DNA from: Nautilus pompilius
Lineage: Eukaryota > Mollusca > Cephalopoda > Nautilida > Nautilidae
Assembly (NCBI GenBank): GCA_018389105.1
Contig: JACATO010000121.1
Coordinates: 3,026,001 to 3,090,000, forward strand
Direction: 5' to 3'
Length of the DNA stretch: 64,000 nt
The notes under the pieces were generated by a model. The model was not told the DNA's origin. It saw only the letters and a list, made by a program, of their open reading frames with translations, and made no database searches. Positions 11,804-54,533 of the stretch are shown piece by piece. Numbering within the stretch: position 1 is the first letter of the stretch; every line of letters starts with the position of its first letter. A program made the translations under genes and the position numbers.

Positions 11804-12625
11804 AGTACAGAGAGATGACGTCAGAGAGAGATTTTCAAAGTTTAAAATGAAAGCATATTCCTGAATTTATATTATGTAGCCTATGTTCTGATTTAAGATA
11901 AATCCACAGATGTCATGATAAAAAGGAATGACACAGAACTCGACAGCTTACGGCATCGTTCCGTGGATTTAGATTTTATTAAAAGATGTAACAAATAAGA
12001 CAATGTTAACAGAAGTGGTTGTTTTTTTTAAATGGTTAAAAAAGAAAATTAAAGTAATTTGATATTCTAGGACCAAATACTTAATTAGGGCGAATTTGTG
12101 TGGACGTCCAAATAAATAGTCGTAATAGTTTAATTATCTATTCACAGACAACAGTGCAACATCTTAATATGCTAACAGAAAAATCCGTTAACAAAATACC
12201 ACGAAGTTTCAGTAAAATAGTTTTATATCTAATTAAGAACTAATGGATCTAGAACTTGGAATATTACCATTTGGTTTTAGCTCGTTTTCAGAATTTGAAG
12301 TTGTTTACCAATTCGCAGTAGGTTTCCTGAATTGATTAAGTTTAAGTAAAACTACAAAGCACGATAAATATTCATAAAAGATAAATTTAATTAAATTTTT
12401 GAAAAGATTTAAAGTATTAATTAACAAAAGAAAAGGAGGTAATAGAAGAGCAAATATGGTATCGTTTATTTTTATGCTTTAGCCCGAAATCTAGGAGACC
12501 ATGCACCAGTAACCAATCGAAGTGGGCGAGATTCTTTGCTCGTTTCTACATTAAAAGGAAAAAAAAAAAAACTCTGATCAAGTTTTCTATGTATTTGTTC
12601 AGCTTTAATTCCAGGACGGGGTTAC
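10348..12625 (-). other. Intron between PDZ end and linker
   Basis: About 2.3 kb. It holds the GA array at 11755-11799 with one adjacent TGACGTCA at about 11816-11823. No coding exon or transposon is visible. Confidence 0.65.
11755..11830. repeat. (GA)n array with a single CRE-type octamer
   Basis: A GA run of about 45 bp is followed by TACAGAGAGATGACGTCAGAGAGA. This matches the unit of the two larger TGACGTCA arrays at 38.95 and 42.49 kb, so it looks like a lone copy of the same satellite family. Confidence 0.85.
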
Positions 12626-12746
12626 CTGACAGGTCTGTGCCAGACCACGAGCTGCACGATGTCTCCTGACGTGTTCATGATCTGCAAGGCTTCTTCAAAC
12701 GTGGCGTCCACCAGACTGTGTCCATTCCACTCCAGTATCTGATCAC
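12626..12746 (-). CDS. Rim: RIM exon: C-terminal half of the PDZ domain
   Basis: A 121 bp exon that enters in phase 1 after TTTGTTACTCCAG and exits in phase 2 at CAG|GTAACC. It encodes DQILEWNGHSLVDATFEEA, then QIMNTSGDIVQLVVWHRPVR. DxILEWNG is the RIM-type PDZ signature (vertebrate DEVLEWNGKPLPGATNEEV), and the terminal VVWHRP corresponds to IIVSRP. The RIM PDZ domain binds ELKS/CAST and calcium-channel C-termini at the active zone. The glycine codon shared with the upstream exon is completed across the junction. Confidence 0.95.
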
Positions 12747-13257
12747 CTGGAGTAACAAAAGAAAAGCCGACAACGGTGCTTGCCGGGTAATTAGAGTTCA
12801 TTCTAAGCGCCGCCATCTTTATTAAAACCGTGGTTTGTATTTTAGAAAAAGAACAAGCGGAAACTATTGGTGAGAATGAGAATACAGATTTGATTACATC
12901 ATCAGATTTTTTAATCAGAAAAATGCAACAACAAAAAAAATAGACCACAAAAAAATCCCCAAAAATCAAAATGAATAATTTGGCGAATAATTCAGATCTG
13001 GTATGAAGTCAAATAAGCGTTAGAGATTTTGCTTTTAAGTGAACCATCATTTATTTATATGATAATTCTGTTGCCAACAAAGAAATCAATTAGAAACAAA
13101 CATATGATTGTGAAAAGTTGACAGTAATTTAACAAATTTAGAAGTACATTCAGTTTTTTTACAAGTGAAATGGGAAAAAGAGAACGTATAAAATAATATG
13201 AATTGTTAAAATAACAAGAAAAGGGCATCTAATATAATTTTTATCGTGTTATAAGTA

Positions 13258-13377
13258 CATTTTAGCCGGAGTTACGTAGACAATTGCTTTAATTTTATAA
13301 AACGTTTATTCTCTACAATGATTTTAACAACGTTTTATAGAATTAATGTAATTGTCTACGGAACTCCGGCTAAAATG
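13258..13377. mobile_element. TA-flanked MITE (Tc1/mariner-type)
   Basis: A 120 bp near-palindrome with terminal inverted repeats of about 50 bp starting CATTTTAGCCGGAGTT and a few mismatches between arms (for example TACG against TCCG). TA dinucleotides flank both ends, as for Tc1/mariner target sites. It is non-coding. No parent transposase with these ends was found in the window. Confidence 0.85.
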
Positions 13378-14106
13378 TATTACCTTAAAATATTTGTTTA
13401 GCTCTTAGTTACTGTACGAGGAATACCATCTGTTAATTAGATTTTTGTTATTCAAAGTGAAAATGCGAAATTAAAGTTTCACTTGTCTGCCATGGCATCG
13501 ATGGTTAGTTGAAACCATGTTTTGGCAGAATGCTAGCACGTGGACGGCGAACTTCATGTAAGATATTTCGTCAGGGAAGACCACGGTGGCTGGTTGTTAT
13601 AGCAACAGTAATTCTTAACTAAACATATAGATGAACTATAATCTACGTCATATGCTTGAAACAGGAGTATAGGATTTTAATAAAAATAAACATGACGTTG
13701 ATTGTAGCGGTAATATTTCAGCATTTTCTAGCAGAAAAATTTTTAACATATGGAATAAATTTCAGGCAAATGTAGTTGGTAGTGATGGTATAAATCAGGT
13801 AATCTGCTTATAAATATTCCTCTTCAACGGTGCTGGGGGTGGGGACGTCGTATAACCCAGTGCTGGCTTTTTGCCTTCTTGAAACTACTAAACCACAAAA
13901 GTTATGTCCCCTGAGTCTCACTCTGCTGCTCTTACCAAACTGAGACTCTGCAAATGCTGAAAAGGTAAGTCTAACAGCGCAGAAGGCAGATACTACATTC
14001 CGCGATAAGATGATCCTAACATTGGTTTAGGTTAAAGTATAGGACTGCTTGGTGTCTTAGAAGATAAAATCACCATACCTTCTCGTTTAGAACAAAAATT
14101 TAAGAC

Positions 14107-14200
14107 ATCTCTCTCTCTCTCCATCTCTCTCTCTCTCTCTCCATCTCTCTCTCTCTCACTCTCTCTCTCTCTCTCTCTCCATCTCTCTTTCATCATCATC

Positions 14201-14267
<67 letters not shown>
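14107..14267. repeat. (CT)n array with CCAT and ATC interruptions
   Basis: Long CT microsatellite with a block of (ATC)n in the middle, the same composite style as the arrays at 48.7 and 51.9 kb. On the transcribed strand it gives GA- and GAT-rich RNA. Confidence 0.97.
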
Positions 14268-14894
14268 ATTTTATTTTTTTTAAGGTTCATTTTAAAAAGT
14301 GATAACTAAACACAAATACCCACAGAAAGGTCTACATTAGCTGTGAAACAAGTCCAGGTTACGGAGAAAAACAGATTTAATTCTTCTTTTCCTAGGCAAA
14401 ACAAAAAAAAGGTTTGATAATTGATTTTTAGAGCCGAAGCAATTATTATCAAGAAAAACCTGTTTTGCTACTTAAATTTGTGTTCATAGTAGTACAAGGA
14501 AATGTTTACTATGGAATTTCAAGACCCGTCCGAAGCGTGTGCTGCTTAGATGTAATTGTAAGTTAATGAGATCTGTTTGCCCAAATTGCAAACAATTAAG
14601 TCGGAAAATAGCTGAGTTAATCACTAGCAGCCATTGTCCAGTTTTTCTTAGATTCTAGTAACCGTTTTCTTATCACCAATCAGATTTAAATATAAATTTC
14701 TAAATTTGAGATATCACTTACTTGAACGCGATATGTCATAGGGATTTTGCAAATATTTCTCGTATATACTTCACGCTAAATTTATTCCCATCCCAATCAT
14801 AGGCGGTTGGGATGCGTGGAGACTAAAATCTTTTCTTCGTGCCAGCAAAGGTCACCGCAGCAAAAGCGCTACAAAATAAGGCAAGTCCGTTTCC

Positions 14895-16152
14895 GTGTGT
14901 GCAGAACAGTCTCCTCTTACCTCTCCGTGTGTGTGTGCAGAACAGTCTCCTCTTACCTCTCCGTGTGTGCAGAACAGTCTCCTCTTACCTCTCCGTGTGT
15001 GTGTGCAGAACAGTCTCCTCTTACCTCTCCGTGTGTGCAGAACAGTCTCCTCTTACCTCTCCGTGTGTGTGTGCAGAACAGTCTCCTCTTACCTCTCCGT
15101 GTGTGTGTGCAGAACAGTCTCCTCTTACCTCTCGTGTGTGTGGTGCAGAACAGTCTCCTCTTACCTCTCCGTGTGTGTGTGTGTGCAGAACAGTCTCCTC
15201 TTACCTCTCCGTGTGTGTGTGTGTGCAGAACAGTCTCCTCTTACCTCTCCGTGTGTGCAGAACAGTCTCCTCTTACCTCTCCGTGTGTGTGTGTGTGCAG
15301 AACAGTCTCCTCTTACCTCTCCGTGTGTGCAGAACAGTCTCCTCTTACCTCTCCGTGTGTGTGTGCAGAACAGTCTCCTCTTACCTCTCTGTGTGTGTAT
15401 GCGGAACAGTCTCCTCTTACCTCTCTGTGTGTGTATGCAGAACAGTCTCCTCTTACCTCTCTGTGTGTGTATGCGGAACAGTCTCCTCTTACCTCTCCGT
15501 GTGTGTGTGCAGAACAGTCTCCTCTTACCTCTCCGTGTGTGTGTGTGTGCAGAACAGTCTCCTCTTACCTCTCCGTGTGTGCAGAACAGTCTCCTCTTAC
15601 CTCTCCGTGTGTGTGTGTGTGCAGAACAGTCTCCTCTTACCTCTCCGTGTGTGCAGAACAGTCTCCTCTTACCTCTGTGTGTGTGTATGCGGAACAGTCT
15701 CCTCTTACCTCTCTGTGTGTGTGTGCAGAACAGTCTCCTCTTACCTCTCCGTGTGTGTGTGCAGAACAGTCTCCTCTTACCTCTCTGTGTGTGTATGCGG
15801 AACAGTCTCCTCTTACCTCTCTGTGTGTGTATGCGGAACAGTCTCCTCTTACCTCTCCGTTTGTGCAGAACAGTCTCCTCTTACCTCTGTGTGTGTGCAG
15901 AACAGTCTCCTCTTACCTCTCTGTGTGTGTATGCGGAACAGTCTCCTCTTACCTCTCTGTGTGTGTATGCGGAACAGTCTCCTCTTACCTCTCTGTGTGT
16001 GTATGCGGAACAGTCTCCTCTTACCTCTCCGTGTGTGCAGAACAGTCTCCTCTTACCTCTCCGTGGGTGCAGAACAGTCTCCTCTTACCCCTCCGTGTGT
16101 GCAGAACAGTCTCCTCTTACCCCTCCGTGTGTGCAGAACAGTCTCCTCTTAC
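14895..16152 (-). repeat. Minisatellite made of copies of the PDZ exon splice donor
   Basis: About 36 copies (counting the real donor) of CAGTCTCCTCTTAC on the plus strand at intervals of 32-40 bp. Length varies mainly through a (GT)n tract, and there are CCGT/CTGT and GCAG/GCGG variants. Read on the gene's strand, each unit is ACACACGGAGAG followed by GTAAGAGGAGACTGTTCTGC. The first half resembles the last bases of the exon ending at 16153 (ACATACGGAAAG) and the second half equals the start of its intron. The array is immediately contiguous with that exon. The three long plus-strand open frames across it are a by-product of a stop-free unit whose 32 bp period is not a multiple of three. Confidence 0.97.
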
Positions 16153-16272
16153 CTTTCCGTATGTTCCCTTGTAAGTCGGCCGGCCCACCTTTGACAACCA
16201 TTGTCACGATGGCGCACAGACGGTTGTTTTCTGCCTGCTTCCCTCCAACGATTCGCATCCCCAAACCTCCAG
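16153..16272 (-). CDS. Rim: RIM exon: first half of the PDZ domain
   Basis: A 120 bp exon, phase 1 in and phase 1 out, after GTTGTTTTTATAG and ending ACGGAAAG|GTAAGAG. It encodes GGLGMRIVGGKQ, then LCAIVTMVVKGGPADLQGNIRK. GLGM is the carboxylate-binding loop of the PDZ domain (GLGMRVVGGK in arthropod RIM, GLKVVGGK in vertebrates) and GGPAD...G is the following helix region. The last glycine codon is completed by the exon at 12746. Its donor is the junction that has been amplified into the adjacent minisatellite. Confidence 0.95.
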
Positions 16273-18989
16273 CTATAAAAACAACGAAAACACGCCATCG
16301 TTGAAAAGAAACTACCATTTTATAATTCTTATTCTCGGAGGTCTGTTATTCGATAGCCGGAGCTTTCTTGCTCAAAGAAAAAAGATGACTTTACAAAGGG
16401 AATTCTCTTCTTGATTATCTACTGTGTAAAATATCGAGTCGGATGTCAGGGTTCACAAGGGAGACAACCTTAGTGAGGATACCTAGTGCCGCGGTTATCT
16501 GTAAAGAACGTTGCTTATCCGGCGCCACGATGACCCAACACTTCCGACTTTGACCGATAAATGCCTATCAGTACTCTTCATGCTTGGATGTGGGAGGAAA
16601 CTCATACGGTGAGCCGGTAAAGAAGAGCGAGAAGGAACCAGTCCGGGGAGGTACGAACGCTGGCTCCTCGTCTTTGGCGGTCCAGTGGGCCATCGGCCGC
16701 CCGCCAGAATGGCACCAAATCCGCCCGATCACTGCTCCTCTGGTGATTATCGATCATCTAAAGGTATTGACGTCTAAGTTCAAATCAACATCTAGAACGC
16801 TGACACGCGCAGCTTCGAAAACATGGACGTACGCGACTAAACCCCGTGGAAATATTTTCAAACTAAACGGAAATTTCCTAAATGTTTAGAGAAAAAAGCT
16901 GCCAGGTTGTTCATCGCATTTAATTGAAGATTTTTATTTATTCCGAGCTTTGCAAAGTCCGCAGAGACTGCGGGATGCTGTAAAGTGGATTAAAACCTAA
17001 AACATCTCGTATCGTAGGAGAGAGAACGGCCAGCACAGAGGTATGATGGTCATGTTTAAGTTAGGCTATTTGGGGAATTTGCGAGTGGAAGGTTGTGGTG
17101 GGGGCTGGAGAAGTTCGCTTGTCCTATTGTTTCACCCAGTCTCCAATCATCAGCTGATAAGAAAAAAATTAGGAGTTATATTTATCTGTTGTAGCAAAAT
17201 CATAACAGACGAGCAGTATTTAACACATGTATTGCACCCCGTTATCAGGACTATGCACCAAGATCAGGGTCTGGAAGTAGAAGTCAGGTCCTTTTAACTG
17301 TCTATTAAATCTAAATTATATTTTAATCGCATAAGAAGGAATTCAACCTTAAAATGTCTATCTGTCGATTATCAATAAGATATTTAAACAATAATTTTGT
17401 AAAGATGTATGTAAACTTTTGTTTGATATCATTATAATTCGTCACTAAATTCTCGAATATCTCTACCACACTTAGAAAACAAAGCAAAAACAAAAAAACT
17501 CAGCTTATCTAATATTTATTATTTTATTTCTTTTCATTTAGAAGAAAGTAATTTTGGAAATACTCGAATGTAACTATGGCCTGGAAGTTAAAACAATCCT
17601 CCTATTTAAAATTCGAAAATCTAGAATTCTTTGGTTTTTGTAATTTTAATTTACAGTTAAATGTTCTACACTTTTCAGTAAACAAGACAAGCTATGGTGT
17701 TATTTTACAACTTTGGCCGACAATTTTTCGTTACCAAAATAGTAAGAATAACAAGATCTTTACTGCACCCATGACCAGACTTCTATTTGGCTCCCACTTG
17801 TCGTCAGGATTTACATGTAGGTTTTTTCCGAAGTCATGCATCTGCGAGTTACATTCTGAATTGTCCCACTTTTCACTTGAAGCAGTATGCACTAATATGT
17901 TAATGTGATATTATTATGAACACTCAGCAAGTTTAATTCGACTTCATCATGCAAAGTTAGACACTTCTAGGATGCTGCAAAACTTTCGACCATGGCTGTA
18001 GATGCTACGGTTCCGTTCCGATGCAGAACTAATGGCCATTTTACCAATTCTTGAACACGTAGCTAACATTAAGAACAGCTGTTTATTCTTAATGCATAAA
18101 TTTTAGTTACTACAGTGAAGTTATTAAGCGAAGCCTCGACGAAAGTAGTTTTTATATGAAAAGGGTTACCTGGATTTGCCGTTACGGTAAATGAGCACGT
18201 GGAGTGTACGTCGTTGGAACTTAAATAAAAGCTGTAACTGTTTGGGAATGTTTTCGATGAAGTATGACTGCAAAAACAGTTTCCCAACGATACACATCTC
18301 GTGATTCCGAAATGAGACCATAAAATATTCAACAGTGAAATAGCAGTAAAGCACCCGGGTTTAAATGAATGCGGGAACTTGCATCGCTATGGAGCCAGGC
18401 TGCAGTGTCAACGGAGCGTGCTCCCTTTTCCAGATTAAGTCTCTTTCATTGAGCCACAACTGCACTATACAGATATGAATTGAATTTTCTAAGTCCTGCT
18501 TCAGACACTCGTGATATCCTGGAGGTTAAGCGTGGCGTGAACAGGGAACTGAAAGCTCTGAAAGAAATGTACCACTGACTCGAGACAGTGCCAGTCATGC
18601 CGGCGATAAATGGTTCTCCGTAACCTTTTGTTCTTGTTGCTGGCAGAGTCCGGAGAAGGGATAAACAGAAGTCGGGCTGAAAGGAGAAGCGATATGTTTA
18701 GCGCTGGCTGTAATTCTAAGTCTCGAGACAGCAGTCACAGGCGGCTCTTTGGAAATCTAAGAGCCGCTGATTATAGAAACCAAGACAAAAGATGCGGGCA
18801 TTACCGAGAGCATTTCTATAAAAAGGAAACGAAATTGTGCGAGAGAATAAACAGCTTTATATCATTAAATATCAGATCGGAATTTATCTAAATCAAATAA
18901 AATTGTAGACGTAGCTTTTCTTGTATTTTCGGGAAAGTTTTGCTGCAAAACCTATGCCATTAGACTGGTCGCAGAAATCTGGGGACATT

Positions 18990-24901: not shown

Positions 24902-27752
24902 CTGAAATAGAAAACAGTGACTGTTCTGGGAGGTTTTAAACCTAAACGGCCCCAAAGACGAGGCTCACGGGAAAGAAGGCTACTTCATTTCAATCAAATG
25001 CCTAACAAAATGGAGAGTAGTTGGTGATGTCAGGCAGTGAACAGTAAATCTCATCAATGCTAAGTAAACCGGTTTTACCAGGAAGAGAGATAACCGGAAA
25101 ATGCTTTTTTTTTTAAAAAAAAACAACCGAAAACAAACTTATCTGTAATCAGTTTTCAATAAAGTGTACAAGTTAACCTCATGTTAGAATTATAAAATAT
25201 AAAACCGACACGAGAAATTTCGTTACTTATATCATGTATGACGTCACATCCGATACCATTATGTTTTGAGAGTGAACGCCACTTAATAAAAATAGCTTAT
25301 TCTCAGCACAAGGTGCCCGTGAAAATAAATCGATTACCCTAGTGATTAGCAATAGCGCTATTAGAATTGTTCGTTTTTTCATTATATAGAGCAAGATCCA
25401 TTTTTGTTTTCAAAAGGTGTGTTGTCGCTTCGATTTCCTTTGACTTTAGGTCCTAAACTCCAAGACACTGCATGGGTACGAGAACATGAAAAACAACAAA
25501 AAATAGGATACGTACGTGAACGGTTCCGACAAGAGCTGCCTCTCAGGGGTGACTGAGGTTTTCTCTAGGTCATAAAGAAGATTTCTGCAGAACTGCCTGC
25601 TGATTGCCAGGTAAAAAATCTTACAGAGACTTGAGTAAATGAGCACCCAGAGACTCAGACAGGGACCGCAGGCTATAACGGCAAGCAAGCCAGACGAAAC
25701 CCTCAGGTTGCAGATGTTTTCTCCATGGACAGTAGGTTCTTAGGGACTGATAGATTTCGAGAGGGGGGCACATAGTCGGGCAGCGGGACGGTGTTTGGTT
25801 CAGGAAAAACATGAAAACCGCTCATCCGCGGCCTGGAGGCCCAAAGCTAACACAACGAAATCTTCGGCTGCAAATGTGGCGAGCACGTGCAGATGTCCAC
25901 GAGATCAATCAGACATTATTTCCACATCATGGAGTATAACAGCGGTATAGCGAAACGCAAACTATCAATTGACTGCAATGAGAAACGCAGATGCTACCAC
26001 GCCTTCCTGCCTTCTGAACACGGACATTTTTTCACAGTTCTTACACAATGGCCGTGAATGAGTGTGGCGCAGTTCAGCACAGGAATTTTTATTGAGCCAT
26101 CTAAAGCCCCGACAGAATATAGAGGTCTGCTTGTCAAGTTGCGGGTGCGATTTAGGCCACTGGACGGCCACAGCTGTATCACAAAGGATCCGTAATGTGT
26201 CACCAATACATCCACATTCTCCGAGAGGAATTGCTGCTAGGCCAATGATTATGTGGTTAAGGAGAGTAATGTTTTTTTTTATATTAACGACACTCACATG
26301 TACGACCTGAGCAACGCAAAGTTGGGAAGAGAATCGGGGCAGCACGATGAATTCTGTCATGACTTGGCGAATCACCGGACAAGAATCCCAGAGAGCGCGT
26401 TTCTGTTCTCGATCGTTCCATGAGCCCGTAATACGGATTCTGTGCTAGCAATGGGATGAAATCTGCAGAGACTACGACTGACAATCTTGGTTACACACTG
26501 TCAGCGCATTGCTAACACGTGTAAAATATAGGGCTGCACCACGAAGTATTAGCCATACTCATATTCTGCCAATGCTCGTATATGAATACAGAATAAACTG
26601 GTGTTGTTTTTCCTCAAACTTTGATGCTTATTTACTTTTGACAAGTAAGAAAAACGTTGATACACAGAAATAGTTCCGAATGTCTTGCTAGTCTTAAAAG
26701 CTGCTGAGCTTATTTCGACACCAATATATATATATATATATTAATGCAAGCATTAGTACAAACGACTTGTTTGAATCTTATCCAGCGTTGGTAATTTTAC
26801 GTTCTCGAAGAACAAAATTTGGCTTTGTATTTATTTATTTATTTTTTAAAAAGAAGAATTTTAATTACTTTTAAATTAAGTATAAGTTTGTTTTGTAATT
26901 TTTCGAGAATTTTTTTTTCCTAATCATAAATAATGTCTACCTTTACAGCCAGGTACTTTCAAGTTTGTGGAACTTGTATTCGCTATGTTACAGGCGTGGA
27001 CCGGGAAGGACAGCTCTCCTCAGGGCAGCAGCCCGTGGCCGTCCACGTCTGATAAAAGGTTTCCTATTAATTCGCTCGCGGCGTAATGCAGTCGAATCGT
27101 CGTAACTTCCTCCGGAAGTTCTGCCCCTCGCCGTTTAATGAAAGCTCCGGAGGAGAAGAAATTGGAAGATTACCGGTCCTCATCGCGGCCAGCCGGCTAT
27201 ACATTTAGAAGAAGCCACTTTATGAGATTCTTGATACAATTAATTTAACCACAAGGATATAGCATCCAAAGAAATTGTCCAAAATAATATTAACTTCATT
27301 TATTTCAGCGAAATTCATCTTCCAACGTGGTCTAACACAAGTAATTTAAATTTAGAAAAAACCCCATTTACATCGTTTAACCGCTATTGCTTATATTTCT
27401 GAGTGTTTATTTGGTGGGAAAGGAAATCCACTGTCCCAAATATTTGTGGCAAACGTAGTTTTAATAGCAAAGAGTATTGTAGAGAATTCTACAAAGACAG
27501 ATGTCTCCGAGTCACTTTTGTATAGCCTAATGAAAGGACAGATGCCGAGTTAAACTCCCAATACGAATTGAGATTAACACTTGTGGCACACAGGTTATTC
27601 GGATGATTCTTGTTCCCATAGATCCCATCATAGTTGATAAATGCCTGACCTATGTACACCTGACTGATCTGGTCGGCGCTCTCACTTTACTGTTAATAAA
27701 TTGATAAGTACATCTAAGAGTTTTATTAGATAAGCGTCGCTGTAATACTTAC
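24902..27752 (-). other. Intron before the PDZ domain
   Basis: About 2.85 kb with a short TA repeat at about 26723-26742. Overlapping minus-strand frames at 25965-26484 are open for up to 136 codons but show no motif I can assign. They may be transposon-derived. Confidence 0.6.
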
Positions 27753-28578
27753 TGAGCGTAGCCGCTTTGGCTTGCTGAGCCACGGCCTTGATGTTCTCAC
27801 AGTGCGGCAGGGTGATCCTGCGGCACTTGTTTTTCTCCATCACTGCGCTGAGGCTGCTCACCGCCCCGCTTACCTTAATGGGAGGCGGCTCCAGGCCGTG
27901 CTCGCCCAGGGACTGCGAGATCTCGCTCCGACGAGAGCTGGCGGTAGATTTGCTGGGCAACGTGCGCCGGCACTGGATAGGGCTTGGTGTGAGACTGTGG
28001 AGGTCGGATAACCTGGGATCAGAAACCAGGCTGTTGGAGGAACTGCTGTAACACACTGCGTTCTGCCTCTGCATCTTATTAGCGCTCGATGTGTCGTCAG
28101 AATGGCTTCCCTCTTGAGAACAGGGCACAAGGCGACTGCTATCCGTTGACGCGTCGGATGTGTTGGGTTTGGCGACCGGTTTCAGCTGGTCTTTGTCTTG
28201 CACAGCCAACGACGTGCCGCCGTACCAAGCAGACCGGTCCTCTTCACATTCTTCCGACCACAGCTCCGAGGAATTCCGAAATTCCTCTCCCGACTCCGGG
28301 GACAGGCTCTCCGGTGCATCACTTCCGTCTGTCCCGCATAACCTGTTTTTCATGGCGCGTTTCCTTAACTTCCTCTCCTGCCGTTTTTTCCTCGAGAGCT
28401 TTCGTTCCAGTTCGAACTGTTCCGTGTCGACCGACGCCTCTTCCTCGTCCTTTTCGTGAGTTTGATTGGAAGGCAGACTGCGTCTCCTGTGAGCCTTTTT
28501 GGACAGGTGATTTGAATCGACGATCCCCAGTTCGATATCAGATCGGTTACCGGTCGGAGAAACTTCTGTCAGGGTGTC
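27753..28578 (-). CDS. Rim: RIM exon: large Ser-rich/basic linker between zinc finger and PDZ
   Basis: The largest exon (826 bp, about 275 codons), phase 0 in after TTTTCCTATATCTCAG and phase 1 out at TCA|GTAAGT. Noticeably richer in GC than the flanking introns. It starts DTLTEVSPTGNRSDIEL. About 50 residues in is a charged helix-like segment (ELERKLSRKKRQERKLRKR), followed by long Ser/Thr/acidic low-complexity sequence, two CRRxxLP-type motifs (CRRTLPSK, CRRITLPH) and the end KAVAQQAKAATLS. It has the character of the disordered linker that connects zinc finger and PDZ in RIM proteins. It is open throughout with no stop, and continuity of phase places it in the gene. Specific partners cannot be read from it. 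Confidence 0.9.
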
Positions 28579-31500
28579 CTGAGATATAGGAAAAAAAAAA
28601 CAAAATAAATAATTCCCCGTTAGTTTAAAACAGCACTTCCCTGTGTATTCTTTTCTTCCTGTATAAATCTTAAAACAAAGCAATTGACTTATGGATTTTC
28701 CGTTGTTTTCTCATCAATAACTTTGCAGCAAAAACGAAAAAGTGAGACGGTTCCCTAACCAACCGCCTAAAAATGTCCACACGTCAAGATCAACGCGTCG
28801 TGTATTCATTGATCGAAGAAACTCTCTTCAGACAACGGAGTCGACGCGATGCTAGTTTCGCTTACTTCTCCTGTGACTAGAGAGGTTGTTCAGGCTTCTG
28901 TGCTCGATGAAAACGTCCAAAAGTTCTTACCTTTCATTTAGAACACCACTACATCTGCATTAAGTATTACTTGACATTTAAAGTGCCATATGCTGGTTTC
29001 GTACTGCCTAGTTCAAGACACTTTCCCGATGTATTGTACTTTTAGTCCTGAAATCCTAAAAGTAGTTGAATACGCTTGGATGAGGCAACTCCAGACTTGC
29101 TTCCTGATCTTTTACGATAATAGAAAGAATTCGTCCATTGACCTTTGGTTTCTAAACTAGCTGCCTTAATGAAGGTCATTTTGAATCGTGACCGTTACTG
29201 CAGCACGTTGGTTACCAAGTTGTCTCCAGATACGCACCCCCTGCCTTCTCTGATCAAAGCTGAAGGACCTATCATCTGCTAAAAGGACTCGTTGTTGCTT
29301 CTGGGCCTCTTGGGAGTCGAACTCTTTAACCCGGACCAAGCAAGAGTGGATTTGGATGATCGACAGGAGAGCCAGGCGCTGGAGATTTCAATAACTCTGT
29401 AAATCTATAACTTTTTCTGAAAGACCTGTCATGTAGAAATGTCTGAGAATGCAGTCGTTACGCAGCGCCTTTCTCGGCTGCCTCTATCGCTGACCCTTAA
29501 GGCCTTTCGATTGCGTGCATGCAGCCCTTGATTACCGACTTGGCTGCACAACAATAACCGACTGTCAAGAGATAATTGGCGTGCTAGTGTTTGACTATTT
29601 GAAGCCGACGCTACTAATTGAAATAGAAAAGCGAGTTTCGGTTCACATTAAAACTTAAGATATCGTGCTTCCTATTGTAGCCAGAATGTCAGTATAATTC
29701 TTTATAAGAAACAGAGTTTCAATAAAATTACCTGTAAGTATCTTAGGCGAGAAAGTGTTGTATATTAACGAAAATATTAATTTGAAACTGCCTCACACCA
29801 GGAAAGAAATAACGAAAACTAGATCTTTTCTTCATAAATAATAACAAATAATTAATCTTTATCCAAGGAATAGTAACTCAACTCCGTAAACAATTAAACC
29901 AGCTTTTGTTGTTGTTTTTTTTCCTTCAGGAAATAATCGATTCGATAAAGTTACGCGCCACTGTATGAATGATGCCTTGGTTGTTCTTCCTCTTTTTCTG
30001 AGATGAAAACATCTTTTCCCGTGGAAGAGCCCGTTACAGCTATCCTTCCTGACCCTCACGTAGACGGCCGGTATTCTAAACTTCTGTTCTGGCTTAATAT
30101 AGAAGTGTTTTATGCTACCGTTTCTATTTAAATGTAAGATAATTAATTTTCTGACCAGAGAAAAGAAAAATTCTTTAATTTTCGGTGGAACCGTCCTATA
30201 TGTAGTTTATATTTAATTAAAACATAACTTGTTGTCTCAGTTGTTTAAGCTGGAAAACATCCTTCTACATTGTTTTCTTGACAGTGGACCAAAAAATCTT
30301 TATTTTTAAATATATTTTTTGAAATAAAACGATTTAAATTTTTAAAAATTCAGCATAACTTTAAATAATGGTATAAAGGAGGAACAAAAGAAGCAAATTC
30401 TTTAGTGCTTTTACTAGATTCCTTACTGTTCGGCGTTGGTAAATCGGTTGATGTTGTTGTTGTTAAGTGAGGTTTTAAAATACATCAATGAAAGCAGGGT
30501 ATCACTGTAGGGTTCGAGTGAGGACTGAATTCATTTTTTATCTGTTATAAACTCAAAGTTTAAAAAAATACCTTCCTGATGGGCACAAGTTCGATGCACA
30601 AATGAAGTGAGAGATTTTTTTAAAAAAAATCTCCTCTCTTTTTATGTATCGTACTAATTGGTAAAAGTCAAACAATGAAATCCTGAAGTCTTGTAATGCG
30701 TTATCTGGTTTTGAAGCTAATGAATGAACATTCTGAAGGGGAATTATCGCAAGTAAAAAATAAAAAGAAATCCAGTTTGAATATAGGAATTTATTTAAAC
30801 TTATTTATTTGATTTATTACTAAAAAGAAAAATAAACGAACCAAGTGAAATATTAAGCATGTTAGATTTTTTATCAGTAAACAAACTTTGCCATTCTCTC
30901 ACAATTTAGCTACGAATTTAATCTGACCCAGCGGTTAGCAGTCTCGCACAGAATCGGCAGTGTCAATTTCTCCGAGTGTGTAAATTAACATACGGCTGCT
31001 TTGAATCTGGTGGAAGCTATTAGACGTATATTTTCTGCTGATGGGAAACGTATTTACAAATGGATCGTTAATTTCAGTTTAAGCTTTAGATGTCAAACTG
31101 ACGACAGTCGTTTATTTAATGTGGGGCAGTTAAATATTCAGCACTTCCGCTGGACGCCTGAAAAGCACGCGCTCTCACAATAATGGAGCAAAACGTCAGT
31201 GTACAAACACCGTGGGGATGTGATAACAACCGTAGTACTTCATATATTCTGTAGGTTTGGAAGAAAAAAAAATTATAGGTCGCAAAAACTGATATACGCG
31301 AAGAAAATGTTTTTTTTTTTCCCCCCGGATTTTAAACGCAAGTAGTTGCACGACATCGTTCTTTAGAAATCTACACACGGATTGCTCCCTCCCTGAATTC
31401 CGATGTCTTTATGTAACCCTGGTCCCTGGTTGTCATTTAGCCGAGAAACAAAGCCGTCGCGATGCGTCTAATCTGCGTGGTTTGGATGCTGGCAGACAGC

Positions 31501-38953: not shown

Positions 38954-39780
38954 TCTCTCTCTCTCTCTCTTACTGACGTCATCCTTCTCGTATATTGACG
39001 TCATCTCTCTCTCTCTCTTACTGATGTCATCTTTCTCTCTCTGTACTAACGTCATCTCTCTCGTACTGACGTCATCCTTCTCGTATATTGACGTCGTCCC
39101 TCTCTCTGTACTAACGTCATCTCTCTCGTAATGACGTCATCCTTCTCGTATATTGACGTAATCTCTCTCTGTGTACTAACGTCATCTCTCTCGTACTGAC
39201 GTCATCTCTCTCTCTCTCTGTACTAACGTCATCTCTCTCGTACTGACGTCATCTCTCTCTCTCTCTTACTGATGTCATCTTTCTCTCTCTGTACTAACGT
39301 CATCTCTCTCGTACTGACGTCATCCTTCTCGTATATTGACGTAATCTCTCTGTGTACTAACGTCATCTCTCTCGTATATTGACGTCATCTCTCTCTCTCT
39401 TACTGATGTCATCTTTCTCTCTCTCTGTGTACTAACGTCATCTCTCTCGTAATGACGTCATCCTTCTCGTATATTGACGTCGTCCCTCTCTCTGTACTAA
39501 CGTCATCTCTCTCGTATATTGACGTCATCTCTCTCTCTCTTACTGATGTCATCTTTCTCTCTCTCTGTGTACTAACGTCATCTCTCTCGTAATGACGTCA
39601 TCCTTCTCGTATATTGACGTCGTCCCTCTCTCTGTACTAACGTCATCTCTCTCGTATATTGACATCTCTCTCTCTCTCTCTTACTGATGTCATCTTTCAC
39701 TCTCTCTGTGTACTAACGTCATCTCTCTCGTACTGACGGCATCCTTCTCGTATGTTGACGTCTTCTCTCTCTCTCTCTCT
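38954..39780 (+). repeat. TGACGTCA-bearing satellite, array 1
   Basis: About 830 bp of degenerate units of the form TACTGACGTCATCTCTCTCTC, with variants TAACGTCAT, TGATGTCAT and TTGACGTCGTC. I count about 11 exact TGACGTCA octamers. A higher-order period of about 140 bp is visible, for example ACGTCGTCCC at 39477 and 39617. Same family as the array at 42.49 kb, in the opposite orientation. Confidence 0.95.
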
Positions 39781-42484: not shown

Positions 42485-42949
42485 GAGAGAGAGAGAGAGA
42501 ACTCCAGGACAGAGAGATATGACGTCAGTACAGGAAGAGAGGGGATATGATGGTGTCAGTACAGAAGAGATATGACGTCAGTGCAGAAGATATATATATA
42601 TATATGATGACAGCACAGAGAGATATGACGTCAGTACAAAGAGAGAGAGAGAACTTCAGGACAGAGAGATATGACGTCAGCACACAGAGAGATATGACGT
42701 CAGTACAGGAAGAGAGGGGATATGATGTCAGTACAGAAGATATATATATGATGTCAGCACAGAGAGATATGACGTCAGTACAAAGAGAGAGAGAGAGAAC
42801 TTCAGGACAGAGAGATATGACGTCAGCACACAGAGAGATATGACGTCAGTACAGGAAGAGAGGGGATATGATGTCAGTACAGAAGATATATATATGATGT
42901 CAGCACAGAGAGATATGACGTCAGTACAAAGAGAGAGAGAGAGAGAGAA
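42485..42949 (-). repeat. TGACGTCA-bearing satellite, array 2
   Basis: Units of the form AGAGAGATATGACGTCAGTACA, the reverse complement of array 1, with ATATAT-containing and TGATGTCAG variants. About 9 exact TGACGTCA octamers. The segment TCAGTACAAAGAGAGAG recurs at 42631, 42775 and 42921, giving a 144-146 bp higher-order unit. Confidence 0.95.
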
Positions 42950-54322: not shown

Positions 54323-54533
54323 CTTACTTCTTTTCGGATCCCATCTGGGCCGAGCGAAGGAGCCGCACTTGTGACACACACGTTTCTCGCAGTCGTAGCA
54401 GACCCTTCCCACACCATCCGTAAACTTCACCTTGAAGCAGAGCTGGCATAGCCGAAGGTCTACGTGTCGAGGGCGTTCATTGGTGTGCTGTTGCAGGTTT
54501 ATTTCATACGTCACCAGGTCTTCGTGCAGTTTT
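54323..54533 (-). CDS. Rim: RIM exon: first three CxxC pairs of the zinc finger
   Basis: Enters in phase 2 after TCGTCGTTCTCACAG. It encodes KLHEDLVTYEINLQQH, then LRLCQLCFKVKFTDGVGRV, CYDCEKRVCHKCGSF and RPRWDPKRS. CQLC, CYDC and CHKC, with CNLC of the next exon, give the eight zinc ligands of the RIM FYVE-like finger; DGVGRxCYDC matches vertebrate DGCGHLCSYC. The end is ambiguous. The stronger donor GAA|GTAAGG at 54328 leaves phase 1 and would not read in frame into the exon at 35248. The weaker AAG|GTTGTA at 54323 gives phase 0 and does, so I use it. A missed small exon between would be an alternative explanation. Confidence 0.93.

Follow-up and report, generated by a model that had tools for sequence, protein, structure and literature searches.

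In Nautilus pompilius, the authentic 5′ splice site of an exon encoding the first half of a PDZ domain, in a gene that we read as that of the synaptic protein RIM, was found to be the first of 36 donor motifs carried in tandem by a minisatellite that fills the first 1.26 kb of the host intron (Table 1). All positions refer to the stretch of 64,000 nucleotides that was analyzed (the window; contig JACATO010000121.1). Our preferred reading, to which we give a probability of roughly 0.6, is that this is a donor-spanning intronic minisatellite that arose from a direct-repeat seed, of which unit 1 is normally used, with slight leakage followed by decay, and which is mostly tolerated. The array is a large and clean new example of an architecture already known from human ABCA7 and from amphioxus.

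The 5′ end of exon A was placed by homology and the AG of a putative 3′ splice site directly upstream (TTTTTATAG/CTGGA). The joined translation of exons A and B (GGLGMRIVGG...GNIRKGDQILEWNGHSL...; it includes base 12625, past the end of exon B, which completes the last arginine codon only) matched the PDZ domain of RIM2 (1wfg; E = 9.6e-18), those of RIM1 (2css and 1zub) and the Pfam PDZ family (E = 9e-14), and the homology crossed the exon junction (IRKG/D) without a gap. A multi-PDZ DLG4 chain stood at the top of the PDB table because the scores of its several PDZ domains are summed; taken singly, the best of them gave 1.1e-10 compared to 1.4e-17 for RIM2. In addition, a zinc finger near position 54448, on the minus strand like the array-bearing gene, matched Pfam RIM2a_ZnF (E = 3.7e-8) and the RIM2 zinc finger of known structure (2a20; E = 2.6e-4), and a C2 piece within 3479–3009 scored 22.6 bits, just over the Pfam cut-off of 22. 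The PDZ and zinc-finger matches, together with the borderline C2 piece, led us to read the gene as RIM. Exon A DNA was found at one genomic location, and no second haplotype or paralogous copy of the exon was found when this DNA was searched in the genome. Skipping of exon A would be in frame (120 nt), whereas skipping of exon B would cause a frameshift (121 nt). Elsewhere in the window, a 342-codon open frame on the minus strand (27685–28710), long for this window, showed a sub-threshold Pfam match to LPG_synthase_C (E = 0.095).

Table 1. Features of the array-bearing part of the putative RIM gene, in window coordinates.
Feature	Position	Strand	Basis
RIM exon A, first half of PDZ domain, 120 nt	16153..16272	-	Homology to RIM2/RIM1 PDZ; Pfam PDZ
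Authentic 5′ splice site (GT) of exon A, array unit 1	16151..16152	-	Sole donor of 36 with an open PDZ reading
Array-bearing intron, 3406 nt	12747..16152	-	Donor and acceptor from joined PDZ reading
RIM exon B, second half of PDZ domain, 121 nt	12626..12746	-	CCAG/GTGATCAG...TCAG/GTAACC
Donor-bearing minisatellite	14895..16164	-	About 36 units of 32, 36 or 40 nt; TRF and unit table
35 decoy donors	14919..16120	-	GT 16120 to 14920; 33 AGAG/GTAAGAGG, 2 AGGG/GTAAGAGG

For the minisatellite, TRF returned a period of 36, 36.1 copies and 88% matches, and the array runs in the sense of the RIM gene from 16164 down to 14895. The sequence GTAAGAGGAGAC occurred 36 times without mismatch on the minus strand of the window, every time inside the array; the first copy is the donor of the 120-nt PDZ exon (GT at 16152), and the GTs of the 36 copies range from there down to 14920. 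Each unit opens with the 17-mer GTAAGAGGAGACTGTTC, exact in 36/36; (T/C)GCA comes next, then a tract rich in CA, and the unit closes with a stretch rich in purines, mostly GGAGAG or AGAGAG. The dinucleotide before the GT is AG in 34 of the 36 units and GG in units 2 and 3. The 35 unit spacings were shown to be 32 nt (12 times), 36 nt (18 times) or 40 nt (five times). Within the window, the minus strand contains 42 AGGTRAG motifs, eight of them outside the array, compared to four on the plus strand; thus, the array of donor motifs is not a matter of chance. CA-repeat elements are bound by hnRNP L, for example in an eNOS intron, and CA runs near a donor are found here as well; the longest pure run per unit is one to seven CA (35 units), interrupted by the donors. 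The first-pass annotation had pointed to hnRNP L, the putative binding of which to these tracts is neither supported nor excluded by the sequence.

Two further features of the array were noted. All unit spacings between 14920 and 16152 are multiples of 4, and spacings of 34 or 38 nt, as from single CA steps, are absent; few independent length events may be enough for this pattern. The unit with its GT at 15164 still measures 36 nt despite one extra C and one G less. Besides, the antisense of the array (14780–16304, plus strand) contains stop-to-stop ORFs of 464, 455, and 474 aa in all three frames, because the unit has no stop on the plus strand.

When each of the 36 GTs was joined to the start of exon B (12746), an open PDZ was obtained from unit 1 only, and the other 35 donors all led to a premature stop. 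For units 4–36 this stop falls in the third unit, whereas units 2 and 3 meet it at exon B or inside it. The possibility that the array is a longer exon was rejected on the stop in the third unit from unit 4 onward. All 35 decoys behave on paper as poison (decay-triggering) donors, in that their use brings in a premature stop; thus, a working gene requires that unit 1 be the donor mainly used. Predicted pairing with the 5′ end of U1 amounted to −9.5 kcal/mol at the true donor and to −9.6 at 33 of the decoys, the remaining two giving −9.2. Among the GTs outside the array on the minus strand, 19 of 3440 matched or beat the true donor. Approximate parity of the decoys with the true site in predicted U1 pairing is supported at the level of sequence. 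Masking of the decoys by RNA structure was not supported for the stretch 15700–16290 (591 nt; exon A plus roughly 12 exon-proximal units), the predicted fold of which was weaker than those of 100 out of 100 shuffles (z = +2.8), so that structure is not predicted to hide the decoys there. The first-pass annotation had described about 36 donor-bearing units over 1.26 kb next to the exon, spaced 32–40 nt, with the true donor at 16153/16152, an AG/GT junction in every unit and some 35 high-quality decoys. The array, its spacing and the position of the true donor were confirmed; the AG/GT junction stood for all but units 2 and 3, and the high quality of the decoys agrees with the predicted pairing.

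In the pre-mRNA, all 36 donors would be able to pair with U1 about equally. The exon-proximal donor would normally be chosen, as exon definition would prefer the 120-nt exon over a longer one, and occasional use of unit 2 or a later unit would add 32 nt or more, leading to a premature stop and nonsense-mediated decay. On this view, the array would for the most part be tolerated, and any cost to RIM splicing, or any modulation of it, would be small. For this donor choice and decay we infer the course of events from the frame consequences and from precedent.

Concerning the origin of the array, the exon ends in ACATACGGAAAG, and these 12 nt were identical to the unit tail (ACACACGGAGAG) at 10 of 12 positions, whereas none of the 356 other AGGT sites in the window exceeded 9/12, a value reached once. 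At its far end, the array shows CACACGGAAAC, similar to the exon end CATACGGAAAG, and the exit sequence there is CACACGGAAACGGACTTG. Counted from the exon, spacings one to four measure 32 nt and the 36- and 40-nt forms start deeper, while the last unit carries the (CA)3 body of the exon-proximal 32-nt units. A seeding of the array on the exon–intron boundary is well supported by sequence comparison, with an exon contribution to the unit that appears to be short, only about 10–12 nt. The resemblance of the far end to the exon end makes it probable that the array was seeded by a short direct repeat whose two copies lay on either side of the donor at a distance of 32 nt. In the unexpanded state, CAYACGGAAA would have been present twice, at the end of the exon and 32 nt further on, the configuration on which slippage depends; the 32-nt spacings next to the exon and the (CA)3 body of the last unit would fit such a 32-nt seed. 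We thus propose that a near-direct repeat of about 10 bp flanked the donor, with CATACGGAAA at the exon end and CACACGGAAA 32 nt deeper in an intron whose start in the single-copy state would resemble GTAAGAGGAGACTGTTCTGCACACACGGAAAC. Slippage or unequal exchange between these near-direct repeats, which we infer, would have duplicated a donor-holding unit of 32 bp, and later expansion with growth of the CA tract in 4-nt steps would have led to about 36 units. Because the residues align with the RIM2 PDZ domain through and past the junction, the exon is likely the source of the unit. This array hints at a way in which minisatellites may be seeded, namely by short direct repeats on both sides of a splice site.

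The genome search covered 727,640,739 bases, all match counts being lower bounds. The exact 17-mer GTAAGAGGAGACTGTTC was found in 36 copies, all of them in the RIM array, and two scattered singles were found with one mismatch; on these counts, a dispersed repeat or a transposon-derived satellite was rejected as the source. With up to two mismatches, the 17-mer was present at no fewer than 114 places (at least 114) compared to at least 238 for the reversed motif. A search for donor-like arrays (three AGGTRAG motifs spaced 8–38 nt), in which overlapping places are counted so that large arrays weigh more, showed 901 places (503 and 398 by strand) vs. 865 for the reversed motif (653 and 212). The RIM array alone makes up 31 of the donor-like places, and the places listed fall into at least 17 arrays. 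A genome-wide class of selected donor arrays was therefore not retained, as there was no clear excess over the reversed motif. In a background sample of 200 kb, made of twenty 10-kb stretches that were chosen rather than randomly drawn, four arrays with a period of at least 10 and at least five copies were detected, one of which contains AGGTRAG in an 84-bp unit that we take to be zinc-finger coding sequence. Thus, donor-like arrays are part of a general richness in minisatellites, and the RIM array stands out in that it includes the own donor of a working exon. The first-pass annotation had taken the unit for exon tail plus intron head, with the exon as source and not product, and had named dispersal of the unit away from this exon as evidence to the contrary. 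No such dispersal of exact copies was found in the bases searched, and the proposed origin is largely supported and refined.

Among the papers listed by literature searches with limited coverage of subscription journals, none described such an array in a RIM gene. By anatomy, the RIM array belongs with the VNTR of human ABCA7 and the 'mirages' of amphioxus. Thus, the build described in the first-pass annotation is not without precedent, and its observation was confirmed while its interpretation is partly supported. In ABCA7, the donor of exon 18 is the first GT of a VNTR in intron 18 with a unit of 25 bp, and use of the donor one unit on causes a frameshift and a premature stop (PMC5954066). 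Frameshifting isoforms are given as 14 ± 6% and 2 ± 1%, unit retention being the latter as judged by the order of the text in that study; use of the next-unit donor is independent of repeat length, while skipping of exon 19 goes up and expression goes down with length. The RIM array likewise begins at the exon, the first GT of its first unit (GT at 16152) is the canonical donor, and the next copy is out of frame and leads to a stop. The ABCA7 unit, however, is C-rich and polymorphic, with RNA measurements and 12 to approximately 427 units, a range that includes the approximately 36 units of the RIM array, whereas the latter is CA-rich with units of 32, 36, or 40 nt and known as one allele from sequence.

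The amphioxus mirages are described as tandem duplications of exon–intron boundaries with AG/GT signals that are unstable in length and reported to be harmless to regular splicing; they occur in Adh3, in globin genes and, by report, in TnC and PGBD5 (PMC3087553, PMC3902484). They share with the RIM array a minisatellite-like duplication of the boundary and many AG/GT units, and also include 3′ exon boundaries (BflGb9). In RIM, the units span the boundary with the 17-mer intron head in 36/36 and an exon share of about 10–12 nt, and carry AG/GT in 34 and GG/GT in two of 36. Globin units of amphioxus measure 150–160 bp in three or six copies and Adh3 units 10–72 bp, compared to about 36 units of 32, 36, or 40 nt in RIM; length and somatic instability were observed in amphioxus, whereas the RIM array is known from one assembly. 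PAH intron 11 also contains a U1-complementary intronic sequence close behind a real donor, but as a single site with an effect shown in minigenes (PMC5933811), in contrast to an array with predicted pairing in RIM. Studies on minisatellites of C. elegans (PMC4039745), the miR-137 VNTR (PMC6692358), and tandem repeats in duplicated human genes (PMC2812944) were judged less close.

The preferred reading of a tolerated donor-spanning minisatellite draws on the observed anatomy, the frame that unit 1 alone keeps, the 10/12 likeness of exon and unit tails, and the lack of other exact copies in the genome searched, as well as on the reported 2 ± 1% use of the next-unit donor in ABCA7 and the reported harmlessness of mirages. 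Neither predicted U1 pairing nor predicted structure of the folded stretch, which leaves its decoys exposed, gives unit 1 an advantage, so that its preference rests on frame and precedent. Moreover, the direct-repeat seed is a reconstruction from a single genome, and the rise in exon skipping and fall in expression with long ABCA7 alleles imply that full tolerance is not assured. These ABCA7 data would also agree with a brake or dosage tuner, in which decoys compete for U1 and splicing, array length sets the RIM level and a set share of RIM pre-mRNA is led to premature stops or exon skipping. The premature stops from 35/35 decoys, the donor core identical in 36/36 units while the rest of the unit varies, and the 120 nt of exon A, in frame if skipped, point in the same direction. 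A young or homogenized array would, however, also give an identical core, next-unit donor use in ABCA7 is reported to be independent of length, donor-like arrays show no clear excess genome-wide, and such a function would be argued from sequence; we regard this alternative as unlikely. In a more far-reaching form, which we hold to be very doubtful, the array would be a length-adjustable U1 platform in a gene of the active zone, and its 35 decoys with identical cores would set the share of stopped or exon-A-skipped RIM transcripts; differences in repeat length between individuals or cells would then tune transmitter release.

U1 is known to guard introns against premature 3′ end formation. The intronic copies may in the same way help, with U1 bound to them and without being spliced, by protecting the intron or by strengthening the definition of exon A; this would agree with decoy pairing equal to that of the donor, with the predicted openness of the folded stretch, and with the promotion of exon inclusion by U1 bound downstream of the donor in PAH intron 11 (PMC5933811). 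We consider it rather improbable, as the true donor is already strong (reached by 19/3440 other GTs on the strand) and U1 binding at the copies is predicted pairing. About equally improbable is a chance origin of the minisatellite next to the exon, in which no exon sequence was copied and exon and unit tails are alike by accident. The genome is rich in minisatellites, with similar numbers of donor-like and reversed-motif places, and the exon-derivable part is short with two differences common to most units; yet the array is in register right up to the donor and the exon tail resembles the unit more than all 356 other AGGT sites do. Recursive (stepwise) splicing, in which each AG/GT would serve as acceptor and then as donor, would make use of the AG/GT in 34/36 units, but in the five of 35 decoys examined, pyrimidines make up only 45–50% of the 22 nt that precede the AG and form no tract, which makes this alternative extremely unlikely. 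The locus is a natural experiment in donor choice, with 36 donors of near-equal predicted strength 32–40 nt apart at one exon. It bears on the extent to which exon definition prevails over U1 pairing, and on the general tolerance of repeats that span a donor, such as the disease-linked one in ABCA7.

Further arrays were observed in the window at 39010–39776 and 42486–42944, with units containing TGACGTCA and CT/GA runs, and a similar unit was detected on another contig (G000:C74:4168–4318); these arrays perhaps represent a dispersed minisatellite family. Besides, a donor-like motif in each unit was also found at C89:32826–33232 and C89:64525–64771, C117:9733–10101, and C114:235246–235532 of the same genome (G000), the unit on C89 being present twice, approximately 32 kb apart.
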